A model generated the notes under the pieces. The model made no database searches. It was not told where the DNA came from and saw only the letters and a program-made list of their open reading frames with translations. Shown piece by piece: positions 5,851 to 13,471 of a DNA stretch of 54,978 nucleotides. A program made the translations under genes and the position numbers. Where the stretch lies: assembly GCA_031292035.1 (NCBI GenBank), contig JARLHX010000253.1:1-54978 (forward strand). The letters run 5' to 3'. Numbering within the stretch: the stretch's first letter is position 1; each line of letters begins with the position of its first letter. Source of the stretch: Negativicutes bacterium. GTDB taxonomy: Bacteria; Bacillota_C; Negativicutes; Sporomusales_B; JARLHX01.

Positions 5851-7836
5851 GTGCAAATCCTTAAATCATCACTGACGCTTTTGATATCCTTAGTTATTGT
5901 TGTCAGTTTGCTGCTTGTAGCTGCAATGAGTTACGTAAATCAGAGAGACATTATCCTGGGTAATGAAGACCAACTTTTTCGGTCGATCGAGACTAACTTT
6001 AATCAAAGCGTCGGGACTTATCTGGTTCAGGCCCAGTCCAACGCCGCTGCCATCGTTTTCAATCCGGAGGTGGCCAGGCTATTTTCCGAAAGAGATAGGG
6101 ACGGGTTGCTGCGTTTGACCGCGCCGGTCTATCAACAGCTGCGGACACAGGGGATTGTCCAGATGCAGTTCCATTTGGCGCCGGCGACTTCCTTTCTGCG
6201 GGTCAACGCACCTGCTCAGTTTGGGGATGATTTGTCCTCCTTCCGTCATACCGTTGTTCAGGCCAACCAGTCGCAAAAACCTGTCATAGGCATCGAGGAA
6301 GGCGTGACTGGGTGGGGGTTCCGTGCGGTTTTACCGGTTATGTATCAGAATGTTGTTGTCGGTAGCTTTGAAACCGGCATGAATTTTGATGTTCAGTTCT
6401 TAGAAAAGGAACTGAAACAAAAACAGCCGGGAGAATACGGGGTATATGCGCTGAATGCTGACGGCTCCGATAAATTGCTGGCAGCTACCATCAAGGAAGA
6501 TGTTGTTGCTGTACCGCCGGATACGATTAAAAAAGCGGTGTCATCGGCGACGATGATTGCTGGATACAGCGGGGATGGCACCAAGGCTTATGTCATCATT
6601 CCGGTCAAAGATTACTCCGGGAAGGTCAAGGCCTATGTCAAGGCGGTGCTTGATCGGACCGAAACGCTTGGAAAATTAAAGCGCAATATGATGAGTACGG
6701 CGGGGCTGCTGCTGGTAATACTGTTGGCATCTGTGGGAGTAATTTTGTTGGTTATGAATAGGCAGTTGATCAGGCCGGTGCAACAGATGATGGAAAAAAT
6801 GGAACTGGTGGCGGCGGGTGATTTGCGGACACGCTTTGATACCTCACAAAAAGGTGATATCGGGCGCTTGTCGACGGCTATTAACAAGACGGTGTCCCAA
6901 TTAAGGCAGCTGATCGGAACGATCGGTAGCTCGGCAGACAAGGTATCCAGCCATTCCGGTTCTTTGGCGGAAGCTGCGGAACAGACAGGGGCAACTGCCG
7001 GACAGGTGGCGGCAACTATTGCCCATATTGCCGAGGGGGCAGCAGAACAGATCGGCCAAGCTGAGCAGATCCGTAAAAAAATAGAGGAGACCAAAGAGCA
7101 GGTCCACTCCGGACTGGAAGAAGCGGGGTCGACATTAGAGGCGGCCAGTCGGACCTCGCGAGTGGCGACCGAAGGGATAAAATCGCTGCAACAGGCGATC
7201 GAGCAGCTTGGCAATGTACGTACGACTGTCAGATTTGCCACCGAATCGATTCATAATCTGGGGCGGCGTTCGGATGAAATTGGCAGCATCGTCGATGTCA
7301 TAACCGGGATTGCCGGGCAGACAAATTTGCTGGCACTAAATGCAGCTATCGAAGCGGCCCGTGCCGGTGAGCACGGCCGGGGCTTTGGCGTGGTTGCGGA
7401 AGAGGTGCGGAAGCTGGCGGAAGGATCGGCAGAAGCGGCGACCAAGATTGGCAAACTCATCCGCGATATTCAGGCTGAGACATCGGTAACCGTACGCACG
7501 ATGGAGAGCAATCTGGAACAGGTTGATGTTCAGGTGGGTGCCATTGAGTCGGGCGGGGCGTCGATGGGCGAGGTGACCAGAGCCATCGAGGTGACTGAAG
7601 AGAATGTCGGCAGCCTGCGCAACCGTTTGCAGACGCTGGATGCTCATTCGGACAGTGTGCAGGACGCTGTCGGCGGAATGACCCGGGTGGTGCAGGAAAC
7701 GGCGGCGGCGGCGGAAGAAGTGGCGGCTTCAGCACAGGAACAATCAGCGGCCACTGAGGAGATGGCGGCTCTGAGCAAGACAGTAGCCGAAATTGCCGAA
7801 GATCTGAAAAAAATGATCAATCAATTTCGCGTATAA
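5851..7836 (+). CDS. Methyl-accepting chemotaxis protein with periplasmic Cache-type sensor
   Basis: The 661-residue receptor has a membrane helix near residues 8-28, an extracytoplasmic domain of about 250 residues that looks like a Cache fold ([26 protein letters not shown]), a second helix near 279-300, a HAMP domain near 301-355 and a long coiled-coil signalling domain. The hairpin tip that binds CheA/CheW is intact ([19 protein letters not shown] near 489-507). Methylation helices are alanine/glutamate-rich; no C-terminal CheR-binding pentapeptide is seen. AAAGGGAGAG precedes the GTG start. Its place at the end of a PAS-phosphatase/kinase/STAS operon suggests that the receptor and the partner switch share an input or an output. 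Confidence 0.9.
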
Positions 7837-8010: not shown

Positions 8011-8050
8011 AAAGCCAGCCTTTGTGAGTGTTGCTCATAGGGCTGGCTTT
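8011..8050 (+). terminator. Hairpin, probable terminator of the signalling operon
   Basis: AAAGCCAGCC (8011-8020) and GGCTGGCTTT (8041-8050) form a perfect 10-bp stem. The 20-base loop can fold further (TGAG/CTCA). The following T-run is weak (CCCTCATTTT), so termination may be partial. The rest of 7837-8224 holds no gene that I can support; a small TTGCC/GGCAA hairpin lies at 7906-7919. Confidence 0.6.
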
Positions 8051-8133
8051 CCCTCATTTTCCGTATTGTCGGGCCGGTGAAAAAATAGCCGATCATTAAT
8101 AGCGCCATTGGACAGATGACTAAGAAGCAACTT

Positions 8134-8187
8134 TTAGAACGAATAATTGTTTTAAAAGTAGTCGCAAAAACTTAAAAAAAGTTCTAA
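8134..8187. repeat. Inverted repeat upstream of sigma-54-type promoter, possible activator site
   Basis: TTAGAAC (8134-8140) and GTTCTAA (8181-8187) are exact inverse copies 40 bp apart in an AT-rich stretch. They lie about 40-90 bp before the -24 element at 8226, the usual range for enhancer-binding activator sites. The arms are short, so this is tentative. Confidence 0.3.
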
Positions 8188-8224: not shown

Positions 8225-8240
8225 TGGTATGAAAGTTGCA
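8225..8240 (+). promoter_or_regulatory. Sigma-54-type (-24/-12) promoter
   Basis: The sequence TGGTATGAAAGTTGCA fits the consensus TGG-N8-TTGCW. The GG at 8226-8227 and the GC at 8238-8239 are exactly 10 bases apart, as sigma-54 RNA polymerase requires. It sits about 75 bp before the ferredoxin-like gene, and a sigma-54 activator is encoded at the far end of the same gene run, which supports the call. Confidence 0.7.
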
Positions 8241-8315
8241 TTAGTTATTAGTGCAGTTTTGCGGTCGGCGAAATGTTGACCGCTCCAGGCGAATAAATAC
8301 AGGGGAGGAACAAGA

Positions 8316-9047
8316 ATGGCCAGGATACATCAAGAAAAATGCACCGGGTGCAAAAATTGCCTCATCTACTGTCCGGATGGCGCTATTTCCTATAGGGATG
8401 GGAAATGTGTCGTCGATGAGGCTGTCTGTACGGAATGTTATGTTTGTCTCAGGAACACGATTTGCCCAGAAGGGGCGTTCGAAGCCACCGAATTGACCAC
8501 TTATATCAAACAATATCAGCATGTGATCAGTGACCCTGCCGAAAGCCACGGGATCAAAAAAGGGGTGTCAGGACGCGGGGCGGAGGAAGTTAAAACAATC
8601 GATGTAACAGGTCGTGTTAAGCGGGGGCAAATCAGTATTTCCATTGACATGGGCCGCCCGGGGCTGGGCGTATATCTCAGGGATGTGGAAAAAGTCGCCA
8701 TGGCATTGGTTGAATCTGGGGTGGAGATACCTCCTGGTGAAAAGTCTCCCTTGGGGTCTTTGATGCCGGACCGGACGACAGGGAAGTTGATTCCTGAATA
8801 TCTGGACTATCATTTTCACTCCCTGATCATGGAGGGGACCTTCAACTATAGTCAATTGCCTGACGTCATGAAAGGCCTACAAGCGGTGGAAGACAAGATT
8901 GAAACTGTATTTACCGTAGGACTGGTCATGCATGTTGATAAAAATTGCTACAATCCGGTGCTTGACTGCTTGGATGGTCTTGGTATCCCCAAGCCGCATC
9001 GCGGCAAGGTAAATGTTGGTCTGGGCCGGCCGTTGGCGGCAGAATAG
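8316..9047 (+). CDS. Ferredoxin-like protein with an unrecognised C-terminal domain
   Basis: The 243-residue protein begins with two cysteine clusters: C9, C12, C15 and C19-Pro, then C38, C41, C44 and C50-Pro. These are the ligands of two [4Fe-4S] clusters, although the last spacing (five residues between C44 and C50) is longer than usual, and C31 is extra. From about residue 80 the protein has a soluble domain that I do not recognise (phrases TGRVKRGQISISIDMGRPGL and VGLVMHVDKNCYNPVLDCLD). It should move electrons to or from a partner enzyme. GGGGAGG precedes the ATG. It leads an operon with the Cys-rich protein at 9067 and the DASS transporter at 9716 behind a sigma-54-type promoter. Its function is unknown. 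Confidence 0.75.
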   Translation: MARIHQEKCTGCKNCLIYCPDGAISYRDGKCVVDEAVCTECYVCLRNTICPEGAFEATELTTYIKQYQHVISDPAESHGIKKGVSGRGAEEVKTIDVTGRVKRGQISISIDMGRPGLGVYLRDVEKVAMALVESGVEIPPGEKSPLGSLMPDRTTGKLIPEYLDYHFHSLIMEGTFNYSQLPDVMKGLQAVEDKIETVFTVGLVMHVDKNCYNPVLDCLDGLGIPKPHRGKVNVGLGRPLAAE

Positions 9048-9066
9048 ATAAGGGAGGGAATAAGCA

Positions 9067-9678
9067 ATGACACATACACTACTTCGCACCGGGGACATTG
9101 AATCGCAAAAAGAAGAGTTCTGCTGGCTGGTGTATCAGACCAAAGGAGTTAATGATGCCGGCTTTGTCGATAAGGCGCTTGACTATATTGCCATTATCGA
9201 AGCGGTGGGCGGCGATAACTGGGGAGATACGAAAACCGGCTCTGTCTATCAGGTTGGTTCCGAGGTCGTCAAAGACGGACTCAAAGACAATTCGCGCATT
9301 CGCGGCGTTTTTTCCAGCCGGGATAAGGCGGTGGAGTTCCTAGAGGAGGTTGTGGCGAAAGAATTAGGATTGTCGGTCCTGATCGCCGGAGTTTTACCGG
9401 AGGTTGCCGAAATTTGCGCTGAAGTCGGCATTGTGCCTCATTCGGCAAATTTTTCTCTTGGTGTATGGGGGCGCAAGGATAAGCTTCCTACCGAGAAAAC
9501 TCTCTCCATCACAACCATGTGCGGTCATCACACCCTTCCCACAAAATTCGTGGAATCGGTTCAGGAAGAGGTCGCCGCAGGCAAAGTCACCCCGGAGGAA
9601 GGGGCGAAAAAGCTGGCCGCCTTTTGCTACTGCGGTGTCTTTAATCCTGTCCGCTGCGCTGATATTCTCTCAAAATAA
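9067..9678 (+). CDS. Conserved-looking Cys-rich protein of unknown function
   Basis: I do not recognise this 203-residue soluble protein. It has no signal peptide or membrane segment. The N-terminal two-thirds is rich in acidic residues (EEFCWLVYQTKGVNDAGF, EFLEEVVAKELGLSVLIAGV). The last third holds likely metal or cofactor ligands: MCGHH near residue 151 and FCYCGVFNPVRC near 187-198, plus single cysteines near residues 18 and 117. A metal site, iron-sulphur cluster or redox-active thiols are all possible. AGGGAGGG precedes the ATG. It lies 19 bp after the ferredoxin-like gene and 37 bp before the transporter gene, so the three are almost certainly co-transcribed and probably handle the transported anion. 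Confidence 0.65.
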   Translation: MTHTLLRTGDIESQKEEFCWLVYQTKGVNDAGFVDKALDYIAIIEAVGGDNWGDTKTGSVYQVGSEVVKDGLKDNSRIRGVFSSRDKAVEFLEEVVAKELGLSVLIAGVLPEVAEICAEVGIVPHSANFSLGVWGRKDKLPTEKTLSITTMCGHHTLPTKFVESVQEEVAAGKVTPEEGAKKLAAFCYCGVFNPVRCADILSK

Positions 9679-9715
9679 GCGGTGGTGGCAAAGATGCTAT
9701 TAGGGAGGGGTATGT

Positions 9716-11209
9716 ATGGCGATGTCTGAGACGAGAGAAACCGCGACTGTCACTGGACTGAAACCCAGCGGTATCAGGAAATTATGCTGGTTGGCTGCTG
9801 CTGCTGGCCTGGCCGCTTTGACGTTGATCATTGCGCCGCAAACGGGGCTACCACTGATCGGACAGCGGTTATTGGGGATCCTTGTTTTTACAGTGGTCGT
9901 GTGGGCCACCGAAGCGGTTCCCTACCCGGTGTCCGCATTGCTGCTGATTGTATTGATGACAGTGGGCGGCACTGATGAAAAGATCGCGCTGAGGCAGGCG
10001 TTCAATAATTCTTTGACCGGTTTTGCCGGCAGTGTCCCCATCGCTGTTATCGCCGGGACGGCTTTTGCCGGTGTCGCGCATACCACAGGGCTGACGCGGC
10101 GTCTCATCTGCACCATCATGAAGGCGGTTGCAGGAGCGAAAGAGACTGCGAAGGCAGAGCGGGTTCTTGCGGCGATGTTTCTTGCCGAGATCCCGCTGGC
10201 GTTCATGGTTCCGACGGCAAATGGCAGAACTGGTCTATACATTTCTTTAGCTGAAGGGCTAAAGAGCACTTTTAAATTCTCTTCTTCTGATGAAGGCGGG
10301 AAGGTCAACCCATTCCAAAAAGCGGTCTATATCGCATGTGGTGTCATTCCTTCGGTCATGGGGGCGGCCTTTTTGACGGCGGGAGAGTCGACGATGCTGG
10401 CCGGGCGGCTGATTGAGGAAGGAACCAAGGTACCTCAATATTGGGCGAACACAGCCATGTATCTTTTCCTACCGACTATTTTTATGCTGGGCATCGCATG
10501 GTATATCTTGAAGCGGACTTTCCCTTCCACTGTCGATAATATTCCTGTAGGATTTATTGATGAACAACTGCGAGAACTGGGGCCGCTGACGAAAAACGAA
10601 AAATATGTGATTGCTGTCCTGGCAGGAGCCATCCTGCTTTGGGCGACCGACCGGTTTCACCATATTCCGGCCGAGTGTATTCTGGTTTTGGCGTCGGTTA
10701 CGCTGTTCATTCCCGGGTTCGGAGCGGGAAACTGGAAACGGGACAGCAAATTTATCGCCTGGGGAGCGGCAATGGTTATCGCAGTGTCAACGAGTTTTGC
10801 CATTTTGTTGTCCAAACACGGTGTGATCAAACTGGTTGCCGGCTGGATCGGGAGTGCGGGGGTTGAAAGTTTTGCCGGGCTATCGATTATCATGGCATTT
10901 GCGATGGTATTCATGCGGCTCGGAGTGGCCTCGATCGGTGGCGCTGCCGCCCTCTTTATTCCGCTGGCTGTTGCCATTGGTCAGAATGCCGGATTTCCTG
11001 TCAACAAGGTGGTTGCCTTTGCCTGGCTGACCTATGTGTACTGTCGGGCCGGCTATCTGTTGCCGCAACAAACCGCCCAGCTGATTACCTGTTATGAATA
11101 TAATTACTTCAGCCGGGGCGATCTGCTCCGGGTGGGGGTGCCGTTAACGCTGGGCACACTGGTAGTTTATGGATTGTGGGCGATGTTTGTCATTCCGCTT
11201 TTGGTCTGA
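9716..11209 (+). CDS. DASS/SLC13-family anion transporter
   Basis: The 497-residue protein is almost entirely hydrophobic, with 11-13 predicted membrane helices. It has the DASS pattern: an early WATEAVPYPVSALLLIVLM segment, a central hairpin (PLAFMVPTANGRTGL) and a duplicated C-terminal half (VMGAAFLTAG, YLLPQQTAQLI). The family imports di- and tricarboxylates, tartrate, sulfate or related anions, usually with sodium, or exchanges them. The usual SNT-like signature is altered here, so the substrate cannot be named. AGGGAGGGG lies just before the ATG. Third gene of the sigma-54-controlled operon; the terminator at 11231-11258 follows. A different DASS transporter is encoded at 33930. Confidence 0.82.
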   Translation: MAMSETRETATVTGLKPSGIRKLCWLAAAAGLAALTLIIAPQTGLPLIGQRLLGILVFTVVVWATEAVPYPVSALLLIVLMTVGGTDEKIALRQAFNNSLTGFAGSVPIAVIAGTAFAGVAHTTGLTRRLICTIMKAVAGAKETAKAERVLAAMFLAEIPLAFMVPTANGRTGLYISLAEGLKSTFKFSSSDEGGKVNPFQKAVYIACGVIPSVMGAAFLTAGESTMLAGRLIEEGTKVPQYWANTAMYLFLPTIFMLGIAWYILKRTFPSTVDNIPVGFIDEQLRELGPLTKNEKYVIAVLAGAILLWATDRFHHIPAECILVLASVTLFIPGFGAGNWKRDSKFIAWGAAMVIAVSTSFAILLSKHGVIKLVAGWIGSAGVESFAGLSIIMAFAMVFMRLGVASIGGAAALFIPLAVAIGQNAGFPVNKVVAFAWLTYVYCRAGYLLPQQTAQLITCYEYNYFSRGDLLRVGVPLTLGTLVVYGLWAMFVIPLLV

Positions 11210-11230
11210 TTGGCATTGCGCCCGAAGTGG

Positions 11231-11258
11231 AGGAGCAGACACGTGCTGCTCCTTTTTT
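11231..11258 (+). terminator. Rho-independent terminator after DASS operon
   Basis: AGGAGCAG (11231-11238) and CTGCTCCT (11246-11253) pair perfectly around a 7-base loop, followed by a six-T run at 11253-11258. It ends the ferredoxin-like/Cys protein/DASS operon ahead of the activator gene. Confidence 0.85.
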
Positions 11259-11377
11259 ATTGTAGTTTACTCGCCGTAGGGTAGGCCGGATCATGCGGTT
11301 ATACGCTGATAAGCAGGCAGGTGTTTCACCTCCCAAAGTCAAATAGGGAAAATGATATGGCTAGGGGTGGGACGAAA

Positions 11378-13471
11378 ATGAGAAAAACGCTGTGTTTTAT
11401 CGGCCAGGGTGAAATTGTGTGTCAGACCATCTTGGGTCAGATGAAAAAATTCTTCGAAGATTATGTTGATATTGTCACCTGGTGTATTGATAGCGACACC
11501 CTTCCGCCTTTTGCCGACTGTGACTTGTATGTTGCCTCTTATATTTCGGCTTATCATCATGCCAAAATGCATCTGTCTGGCGACAGAAAAATACTCTCTG
11601 CCGAGCGAATTATTAACCCTGGTAATTTTGACAGGCTGCTTGACTTGGAAGCCGGCACCAAGGTGGTCGTTGTCGGCAATTCCAGAGACAGGGCTGAATT
11701 TGTGGTGCATTCGATCAGTGCGTTTGGGATTGATCATTTAGAGATGAAGGTACATTATCCCGGCAATCAGGCTGAGATTCCTGAAACAATCAAAATAGCG
11801 GTCATTGCCGGGCAAAACCGATTGATTCCAGACTGGGTTACCGAGGTCATCGACCTTGGAGTCAAAGATATTGCCCTTACGACTTATGTGGAGATCATCC
11901 AAAACCTAGGTATTCCTCCCGCCGTACTAAACGAAATTGCCAGCTACTATATGCAGGCGATATTTGATACTACATTAAAGCTGCATGATGTCGCCCGGAT
12001 AAACAGCGAGTTAAAGAAAAGCATGGAGATCGTCTTTCAAAATGTGGACGATCCGATTATCGCCGTTAATTTGCAGGGGGAAATTCAGATTGTTAATCCT
12101 GCCAGTGAGCGGTTATTTGACGTTGCTACCGGATTGGCGGGGGTTCCGGTGGGGAAAATCATTCCTGATCTCGATTTCCGGAGCTGCTTGGAGAAGGGGG
12201 AAAGCATTAATAACGAATTTTGCCGCATTGGGAATCAGTATTATTTGGTTGCGGCAAACCCCATAGAAAGCCAGGCAGGGGCAATTTTAGGTGCGGTCAT
12301 CACGATAAAGCCTGTCAGCAAAGTACAGGAGATGGAGAACAAAGTAAGACGGGAACTGAAACCGAAAGGCAATATCGCCCGCTATACCTTTAGCCAGATC
12401 ATCGGTGATTCAACAGAATTGAAAAAGGCGGTTGCGTTAGCGAAACGTTTTGCGAAAACAGACCTGACCGTCCTATTGGAAGGCGAGAGCGGGGTCGGAA
12501 AAGAATTATTTGCCCAGTCCATGCACAATGCTTCCGGACGATTTTCCAGTCCGTTTGTTGCCCTCAATTTTGCGGCATTGCCGGAACCATTGGCGGAAAG
12601 CGAACTGTTTGGTTATGAGGAAGGAGCCTTTACCGGAGCAAGAAAAGGCGGCAAAAATGGTCTTTTTGAAGAGGCCCATACCGGTACGCTTTTTCTGGAT
12701 GAAATCGGTGACGCTTCGCTTGAGCTTCAGGCCAGGCTGCTACGGGTATTGGAGGAGAAAGAGGTGCGCCGGATCGGCGGACGAAATGTCACCCCGGTTG
12801 ATGTCAGGGTCATCGCCGCCACCAATAAGAACATTGCCGATTTGGTAAAAGAGGGAAGATTCAGGACCGATCTTTTTTTCCGGCTGTGTGTCCTCCCGGT
12901 CTATATCCCGCCGCTGCGAAACCGCGGCGATGATTTATTTTTACTGGTCCAGAGTTTTGCCCGCAGCATTTACCAGAGAACCCTGGTGCTGAGCCCGGCA
13001 TTAAAAGAGTTGCTGGCCGCTTACGAATGGCCTGGCAACATCAGGGAAGTACAGAATGTAGTCAAATATATCTGTAATTTGGTTGACGCAGAGTCGGTTG
13101 TGAGCCCGGATGATTTGCCGCGATACCTGGTAGCCGGTCTTGCCGAGCCGGCTGGTATTGAGCAAAAAGAGCAAGACGAGTATCAGTTTGCAAGGCAGAT
13201 TGAAAGAAAAGGCCTGGTGCCACTGGTGATAGCGGTGTTGACAGAATTGCAGAAGGCTTTGATTCATAACAAGAATGCCGGTGGGGGAACGATCGCCCTG
13301 GCATTGGCGGACAAGGGGCTGCAAGTTCCCACCTATAAAATCAGAAACTGTTTGAAGATGCTCAGTCAGGAAGGTTTCTTGGATACTGGGGTCACGAAGC
13401 AGGGATCGAAGATAAATGCGCAGGGACAAGACCTTCTGCGTCAACTGACAGGCAAAAGTAAAAATGTTTGA
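11378..13471 (+). CDS. Sigma-54-dependent activator with N-terminal sensory and PAS domains
   Basis: The product is about 697 residues. The N-terminal 200 residues form a sensory domain reminiscent of the PrpR N-terminal fold (GTKVVVVGNSRDRAEFVV). A PAS domain lies near 215-315, then an AAA+ core with Walker A GESGVGKE near 368, the sigma-54 contact loop GAFTGA near 416, Walker B LFLDEIGD near 437 and EWPGNIREVQN. The C-terminal 100 residues lack the usual short Fis-type helix-turn-helix; instead they end in a segment resembling a winged helix (YKIRNCLKMLSQEGFLDTG). The ATG at 11378 is preferred because GGGGTGG lies about eight bases upstream; in-frame GTG 11321 and ATG 11357 are alternatives. 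The probable target is the promoter at 8225. Confidence 0.88.
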   Translation: MRKTLCFIGQGEIVCQTILGQMKKFFEDYVDIVTWCIDSDTLPPFADCDLYVASYISAYHHAKMHLSGDRKILSAERIINPGNFDRLLDLEAGTKVVVVGNSRDRAEFVVHSISAFGIDHLEMKVHYPGNQAEIPETIKIAVIAGQNRLIPDWVTEVIDLGVKDIALTTYVEIIQNLGIPPAVLNEIASYYMQAIFDTTLKLHDVARINSELKKSMEIVFQNVDDPIIAVNLQGEIQIVNPASERLFDVATGLAGVPVGKIIPDLDFRSCLEKGESINNEFCRIGNQYYLVAANPIESQAGAILGAVITIKPVSKVQEMENKVRRELKPKGNIARYTFSQIIGDSTELKKAVALAKRFAKTDLTVLLEGESGVGKELFAQSMHNASGRFSSPFVALNFAALPEPLAESELFGYEEGAFTGARKGGKNGLFEEAHTGTLFLDEIGDASLELQARLLRVLEEKEVRRIGGRNVTPVDVRVIAATNKNIADLVKEGRFRTDLFFRLCVLPVYIPPLRNRGDDLFLLVQSFARSIYQRTLVLSPALKELLAAYEWPGNIREVQNVVKYICNLVDAESVVSPDDLPRYLVAGLAEPAGIEQKEQDEYQFARQIERKGLVPLVIAVLTELQKALIHNKNAGGGTIALALADKGLQVPTYKIRNCLKMLSQEGFLDTGVTKQGSKINAQGQDLLRQLTGKSKNV

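Follow-up and report, generated by a model that had tools for sequence, protein, structure and literature searches.

A contig of 54,978 nucleotides from a Negativicutes bacterium (GenBank JARLHX010000253.1, referred to over its whole length as the window) carries two adjacent genes, encoding proteins that we call FD8316 and P9067, followed by a gene for a DASS/SLC13-family anion carrier and a gene for a sigma-54-dependent activator. Comparison with related loci indicates that FD8316 and P9067 are an old two-gene unit, and we propose, holding the proposal to be about evenly balanced, that together they form, as its two subunits, a single uncharacterised iron-sulfur enzyme acting on a small organic acid imported by the carrier. 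Such an enzyme would probably be an oxidoreductase that is coupled to ferredoxin and acts on small (tri/di)carboxylates. An earlier note on this stretch had suggested that one of the two proteins may be an enzyme, and the pair are indeed the only enzyme candidates in the operon of the window.

Conservation of the FD8316 and P9067 pair

When 84,980 genomes of named species were scanned with a sequence pattern, 68 loci emerged, and searches of three classes recovered P9067 relatives in 21 of 380, 19 of 180 and 5 of 391 genomes (the seed genome being included in each case); 40 longer regions were taken from these three-class searches and from a search with the DASS carrier. The set comprises 109 loci including the window, of which 108 are either the window itself or were selected through P9067 and one (L133) was selected through its DASS relative. 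FD8316 relatives are present in 107 loci and P9067 relatives in 106, and because the loci are nearly all P9067-selected, the FD8316 count is the informative figure.

The order of the two genes is nearly constant, with an FD8316 relative directly upstream of, and on the same strand as, 119 of the 125 P9067 relatives, at a median gap of 12 nucleotides. Six of the 119 pairs were dropped for length before trees and conservation were computed, and the 113 entries used come from 98 loci, some of them closely similar and some with tandem pairs that share an operon; in the relatives, genes were delimited by the analyst's choice of open reading frames (ORFs), and some starts are misplaced. Over the 113 pairs the distance matrices of the two proteins correlate with r = 0.916, the largest value among 1000 permutations being 0.095. 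Together with the gene order, this bears out the view of the earlier note that the two proteins belong together. Among the named sources of the pair are Negativicutes, Clostridia, Synergistota, Desulfobulbaceae, Chloroflexi, Bathyarchaeota, Lokiarchaeota and Aminicenantes, and in 380 genomes of one class no relative exceeded 61% identity.

Domain content and invariant residues

FD8316 (8316..9047, forward strand; 243 amino acids) has ferredoxin motifs (PF00037, E = 7e-7) forming a 2[4Fe-4S] ferredoxin domain, followed by an unassigned C-terminal domain, and is the proposed electron-transfer subunit. Its Pfam matches are of the Fer4 type only, plus one weak match to an LdpA Fe-S domain, and there is no Pfam match beyond approximately residue 55; the C-terminal domain of about 180 residues is predicted to be alpha/beta. 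All eight cysteines are invariant in 113 of 113 FD8316 relatives, as are R87, E91, K93, R114, E173 and K231, and it is these six residues and the extra, unassigned domain of some 180 residues that distinguish FD8316 from 2[4Fe-4S] ferredoxins. FD8316 relatives fall into 1174 sequence clusters, of which the best 120 were examined, and the tail may include other ferredoxins.

Some public NCBI records call FD8316 relatives 'indolepyruvate ferredoxin oxidoreductase subunit alpha'. These record names favour a reading of FD8316 as part of one of the known 2-oxoacid:ferredoxin oxidoreductases, but the domain content of the window protein does not support the name and contradicts this reading: a protein of this size, with the Pfam matches given above, lacks a thiamine pyrophosphate (TPP)-enzyme domain, and the match to TIGR03336 (IOR_alpha), which involves the ferredoxin motifs only, reaches 18.5 where the cut-off is 650.9. 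We consider this reading very improbable indeed.

P9067 (9067..9678, forward strand) is an unassigned protein of 203 amino acids with the motifs CGHH and FCYCGVFNPVRC, and is the proposed catalytic subunit; it has no Pfam or NCBIfam match above cut-off. An alpha/beta N-terminal domain is predicted, together with a helical C-terminal part that carries Cys152, His154, Cys187 and Cys189. Seven residues, H3, R7, C152, H154, C187, C189 and N193, are invariant in 113 of 113 relatives; the pattern scan of named genomes included H3 and R7, so both were partly selected for, and in the 38 entries that came from outside that scan all seven are still invariant (38 of 38). P9067 relatives comprise 602 sequence clusters, of which the best 120 were examined. 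Among PDB sequences, matches of the P9067 profile to XPA (E = 0.0025) extend over some 25 residues around a CGH motif and were taken as chance. Homology between the C-terminal domain of FD8316 and the N-terminal domain of P9067 was also considered; hhalign gave P = 0.0036 and none of 200 column shuffles matched the real score, yet the profile scored higher when reversed (26.3 versus 25.7), and the idea was dropped.

The three cysteines and His154 of P9067 may form a metal site, for which zinc is possible. Three cysteines and a free position are the pattern of aconitase-type hydro-lyases, and the resemblance of P9067 to it favours the most serious alternative to a redox enzyme, in which FD8316 and P9067 would form an iron-sulfur lyase or isomerase that dehydrates, hydrates or isomerises hydroxy acids without redox chemistry; the P9067 site would then be an aconitase-like Lewis acid, and the FD8316 clusters would serve stability or redox sensing. 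Against this, the invariance of all eight ferredoxin cysteines would be costly in a non-redox enzyme, and we judge the lyase or isomerase unlikely, while giving it more weight than any other rival. Iron-sulfur hydro-lyases are absent from the complete lists of Pfam families matched at E up to 1 (13 for FD8316 and one for P9067) and from the NCBIfam matches listed (25 of 67 for FD8316 and one of one for P9067). The earlier note had asked whether homologues of the two proteins are subunits of a characterised enzyme; the profile and fold searches matched the homologues of the pair to no known enzyme family. The predicted alpha/beta domain of P9067 could alternatively be read as PII-like, in which case the pair would be a sensor or regulator of the carrier and P9067 would control transport by analogy with the action of SbtB on SbtA, a role that seems to us distinctly improbable.

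Genes neighbouring the pair

The genes that share an operon with the pair are frequently those of organic-acid carriers, as the earlier note had supposed: TctA is present in 58 of the 113 entries. The other recurrent neighbours are GntR (33 entries), CooF-like (25), CODH-like (19), FNOR (19), 6PGDH-like (16), aconitase-like (13), IPMDH-like (11), AOR (7) and OYE (6), names that were given to gene clusters after profiling one or a few members of each, not every member. The representatives profiled, one per cluster, match the Pfam families TctA, TctB, TctC, DctP, DctM, MFS, AOR and isocitrate/isopropylmalate dehydrogenase, and the CooF-like representative is a multi-Fer4 protein; the names CooF and FNOR are presumed from resemblance. 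As a control for abundance, TctA was found in 147 of the 180 genomes searched in one class, with 1–9 scored copies among the genomes listed; the same-operon rate of 51% nonetheless greatly exceeds that to be expected from a few copies in a total of some 2,000–3,000 genes (the analyst's estimate).

These neighbours bear on the alternatives in different ways. Aconitase-like, IPMDH-like, DHDPS-, HpcH- and PrpD-type neighbours could precede or follow a dehydration or isomerisation and so favour the lyase or isomerase, while CooF-like, FNOR, CODH-like and AOR neighbours point instead to electron transfer. It is also conceivable that the pair activates or repairs adjacent iron-sulfur enzymes (aconitase-like, AOR, OYE-like or CODH-like) by supplying electrons or clusters, and several neighbours do belong to families that contain iron-sulfur clusters. 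However, in 20 of the 113 entries the operon is without any other enzyme gene, and many neighbours (IPMDH-, 6PGDH-, PdxA- and HIBDH-like) are not known to need a cluster, and activation or repair is in our view improbable.

In those 20 entries the pair are the sole non-transport, non-regulatory genes, by a count that disregards contig ends and unnamed ORFs of less than 130 amino acids, and 15 of the 20 (14 operons) include a carboxylate-carrier gene. A further five entries have the pair with CooF-like, CODH-like or FNOR genes and no other enzyme; two of these represent one L014 operon and two include a gene for a MetQ-like lipoprotein.

A short CODH-like protein of about 480 amino acids, a CooF-like ferredoxin and an FNOR-type flavoprotein recur together beside the pair, in L136 (CODH-like gene at 10788-12236), L138, L139, L145, L148, L165, L169, L172, L003, L004, L010, L014 and L048. 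The L136 CODH-like protein aligns to solved CODH at residues 6–98 and 146–447 and is much shorter than the solved enzymes, and its score lies well below the cut-off of the CODH family. The pair operons with these genes, in the numbers given above, resemble Ni-CODH operons with CooF and FNOR, but the pair-adjacent CODH-like proteins differ in their length and in their scores to TIGR01702, which are 171, 142 and 53 bits in three members against a cut-off of 478. Among the 12 of 48 matches listed for PMC6344411, which concerns the genomic contexts of Ni-CODH, there is no such pair.

In L018, L009, L134, L003, L004, L010, L014 and L048 two FD8316–P9067 pairs stand in tandem and differ in subtype (CGHH alongside CGHG or CGHA); they flank an Ldh2-type gene or, in four operons, precede a gene for a 6PGDH-type dehydrogenase. 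Tandem pairs of differing subtype may represent two steps in series.

Carrier genes in the pair operons

The carrier gene of the window (9716..11209, forward strand) encodes a protein that matches PF00939 over residues 35–489 (E = 1e-39; 137 bits against a cut-off of 27). Its score to the NCBIfam 'dass' model TIGR00785 lies below the cut-off (125 versus 198.6 bits), and therefore it is a divergent branch of the DASS family and a member at the Pfam level only. Of the solved DASS/SLC13 structures, the closest by sequence is 6wu1, a DASS family sodium-coupled anion symporter, and it is distant (E = 2e-5). Some relatives of the carrier bear Negativicutes, Sporomusa or Anaerospora names, and outside the window its link to the pair is through equal-sized contigs (42084, 3320 and 3481) and is thus indirect. 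A close relative (56% identity) was found, among the matches listed, where at most four candidates were scored per genome, in one of 380 genomes, at L133, and that genome has no pair. At L133 (12429-17528) this relative lies near genes for an aconitase, a fumarate-reductase-like flavoprotein and CoA-transferases, a neighbourhood that is a lead to the substrate class of the carrier. A DASS-family gene at L134 is 25% identical to that of the window and was not counted as the same carrier.

Overall, the pair operons most often encode TTT carriers, and otherwise DASS, CitMHS, TRAP or MFS carriers. The position between the pair and the activator gene is occupied by the DASS gene in the window and, in L135, by a citrate:proton symporter gene (TIGR00784, 485 bits against 260). 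A constant partnership with DASS was rejected, there being other carriers at many pair loci and an L133 relative without the pair. The expectation that all three genes would co-occur in other genomes thus held for FD8316 and P9067, which are together at nearly all loci, and failed for DASS specifically, many loci having TTT carriers and L135 a CitMHS carrier.

The activator and its promoter

The activator (11321..13471, forward strand) matches Sigma54_activat (PF00158, E = 3e-65), with PAS-like matches below the Pfam cut-off, and GAFTGA is visible in its translation. It is 42–45% identical over nearly its full length to the activators of L001, L013, L015, L017, L019 and L022. Its N-terminal region of about 220 amino acids is common to the same six loci and L135 (29–36% identity), whereas the remaining sigma-54 activators found close to the pair do not match it at E = 0.01; PAS and C-terminal regions are likewise common to pair-adjacent activators elsewhere. 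Since the N-terminal region is shared with these pair-adjacent activators, a single activator subfamily follows the pair while the carrier changes. The nearest NCBIfam models are PrdR and PrpR, and the window resembles the sigma-54-controlled catabolic operons of that kind in its -24/-12 promoter, in the adjacent AAA+ activator with a PAS-like region, and in holding a carrier and enzyme candidates together. It differs in that the activator scores 344 bits to PrdR against a cut-off of 795 and has an N-terminal region of its own, and in that the enzyme candidates match no catabolic enzyme family known.

Upstream of FD8316 lies a -24/-12 (sigma-54 type) promoter-like element, TGGTATGAAAGTTGCA (8225..8240, forward strand), identified by pattern match and comparative scoring. 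The earlier note had described its geometry as exact; GG and GC are in the -24/-12 register, with two departures from TGGCACG-N4-TTGCW, and with three loose -24/-12 patterns found in the 55-kb window against 1.39 expected, the match taken alone is weak. It gains weight because the comparison across pair operons supports it. On a scale with weights set by the analyst and a threshold fixed after a first pass, the window element scores 26.5 of 30, and sites of at least 26 are present in all seven operons beside activators of its subfamily (those with readable upstream sequence, the window included), in six of seven beside other full-length sigma-54 activators, and in two of the remaining 74 (L008 and L002). 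A high-scoring site thus accompanies 13 of 14 operons with an adjacent full-length activator versus 2 of 74 without (p ~1e-12), or 13 of 17 versus 2 of 71 when operons with shorter activator-like ORFs (L032, L049 and L065, which are among the 74 and have no high-scoring site) are regrouped (p ~2e-10), these p values ignoring relatedness. The L008 contig stops about 2 kb past P9067, and L017, its counterpart in gene order, has an activator just beyond. Operons with less than 120 nucleotides of upstream sequence were omitted (one of eight for the subfamily, none of seven for other activators and 11 of 85 for the rest), and L137 is absent through the length filter on pairs. We regard the association of promoter and activator across the pair operons as strong.

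In seven relatives (L001, L008, L013, L015, L017, L022 and L135, that is, six with the activator plus L008) CCTAA/TTAGG occurs 29 times upstream of the -24/-12 element, against 5 expected. It is present in all seven, singly weak in L001, L022 and L135, and the most over-represented of the 5-mers occurring at least eight times, and these half-sites are likely to be the binding motif of the activator subfamily. This half-site was not found upstream of the element in the window, and it is therefore only by inference that the imperfect inverted repeat ACTTTTAGAAC-N8-GTTTTAAAAGT (8130..8159, forward strand; 10 of 11 pairs), which lies upstream of the -24/-12 element, is put forward as a candidate activator-binding site. 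L015 carries a similar dyad, the upstream region of the window has TTAGAAC/GTTCTAA twice (noticed post hoc), and the binding motif may have shifted in the lineage of the window.

Examination of the window sequence confirmed the gene order, coordinates and motifs reported previously. The first three genes are tightly spaced, FD8316 and P9067 being separated by 19 nucleotides and P9067 and the carrier gene by 37, and each start codon of the operon has a GGGAGG stretch before it. A terminator-like hairpin with a T-rich tail (11229..11255, forward strand; 10 hairpins of this type were found against 7.3 expected) separates the carrier and activator genes, so the activator gene probably does not just continue the operon as a fourth member. 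Just upstream of the operon is a gene for a methyl-accepting chemotaxis protein (MCP; 5851-7836), with an inverted repeat at 8011-8050 in between. Further MCP genes occur close to the pair in L143 and L148 and beside the L133 relative of the DASS carrier; the ligand domains are unrelated, and a shared chemoreceptor was rejected.

Proposed function

Returning to the two-subunit redox enzyme, we envisage that the carrier imports a small organic acid, which would reach a complex of FD8316 and P9067 and have its carboxylates bound by invariant Arg, Lys and Glu residues from both subunits. Electrons would travel via the two [4Fe-4S] clusters of FD8316, and the Cys/His site of P9067, which may hold a [4Fe-4S] cluster lacking a Cys ligand at one position or else a different metal, would do the chemistry; the dedicated activator would sense the acid and switch on carrier and enzyme through the -24/-12 promoter. 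(Tri/di)carboxylates and hydroxy acids are the first candidate substrates because neighbouring genes are of kinds whose products act on citrate-, isocitrate- and hydroxy-acid-like compounds, and substrates may differ between branches. Reduction is one option only for the redox direction: the FNOR–CooF–CODH-like neighbours would suit electron supply, and oxidation of the acid would be in keeping with the dehydrogenase neighbours. Readings of the pair as an aconitate reductase or as an enzyme of tricarballylate were considered and not taken up.

Several points weigh against this proposal, apart from the lyase discussed above. The enzyme and its metal site are predictions from gene sequences, and neither FD8316 nor P9067 matches a solved fold at a Foldseek E of up to 0.001. 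The distance correlation partly reflects shared species history, some entries being from closely similar loci, and part of the TctA association may reflect abundance. Electron-transfer neighbours are present in a minority of entries and absent from the window; the adjacent dehydrogenases and aldolases vary widely, so that possibly not one reaction is involved; and the DASS link is, as far as the searched genomes show, specific to the window.

Implications

The operon type and the sigma-54 regulation are known; the enzyme candidates have no Pfam or NCBIfam family. No paper on the pair appeared among the entries examined of the open-access PubMed Central (PMC) literature, subscription papers being outside the scope; PMC13056359 gave no matching passage, and passages of PMC10838667, PMC12366334 and PMC12290011 were also covered. 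It is a realistic possibility that the enzyme class as such is new. Rather more tentatively than the enzyme proposal as such, we suggest a new class of two-subunit iron-sulfur enzyme in anaerobic bacteria and archaea, in which a new catalytic fold would hold a site-differentiated cluster (C152, C187, C189 and H154) beside a dicluster carrier and perform ferredoxin-linked polycarboxylate or hydroxy-acid chemistry outside known enzymes.

If the pair is an enzyme, present annotation has no name for a whole class of anaerobic metabolism of organic acids, and FD8316 relatives are misnamed in some public records. The window is a convenient test bed, having a single promoter, a single carrier and, as its sole enzyme candidates, the two unknown genes.

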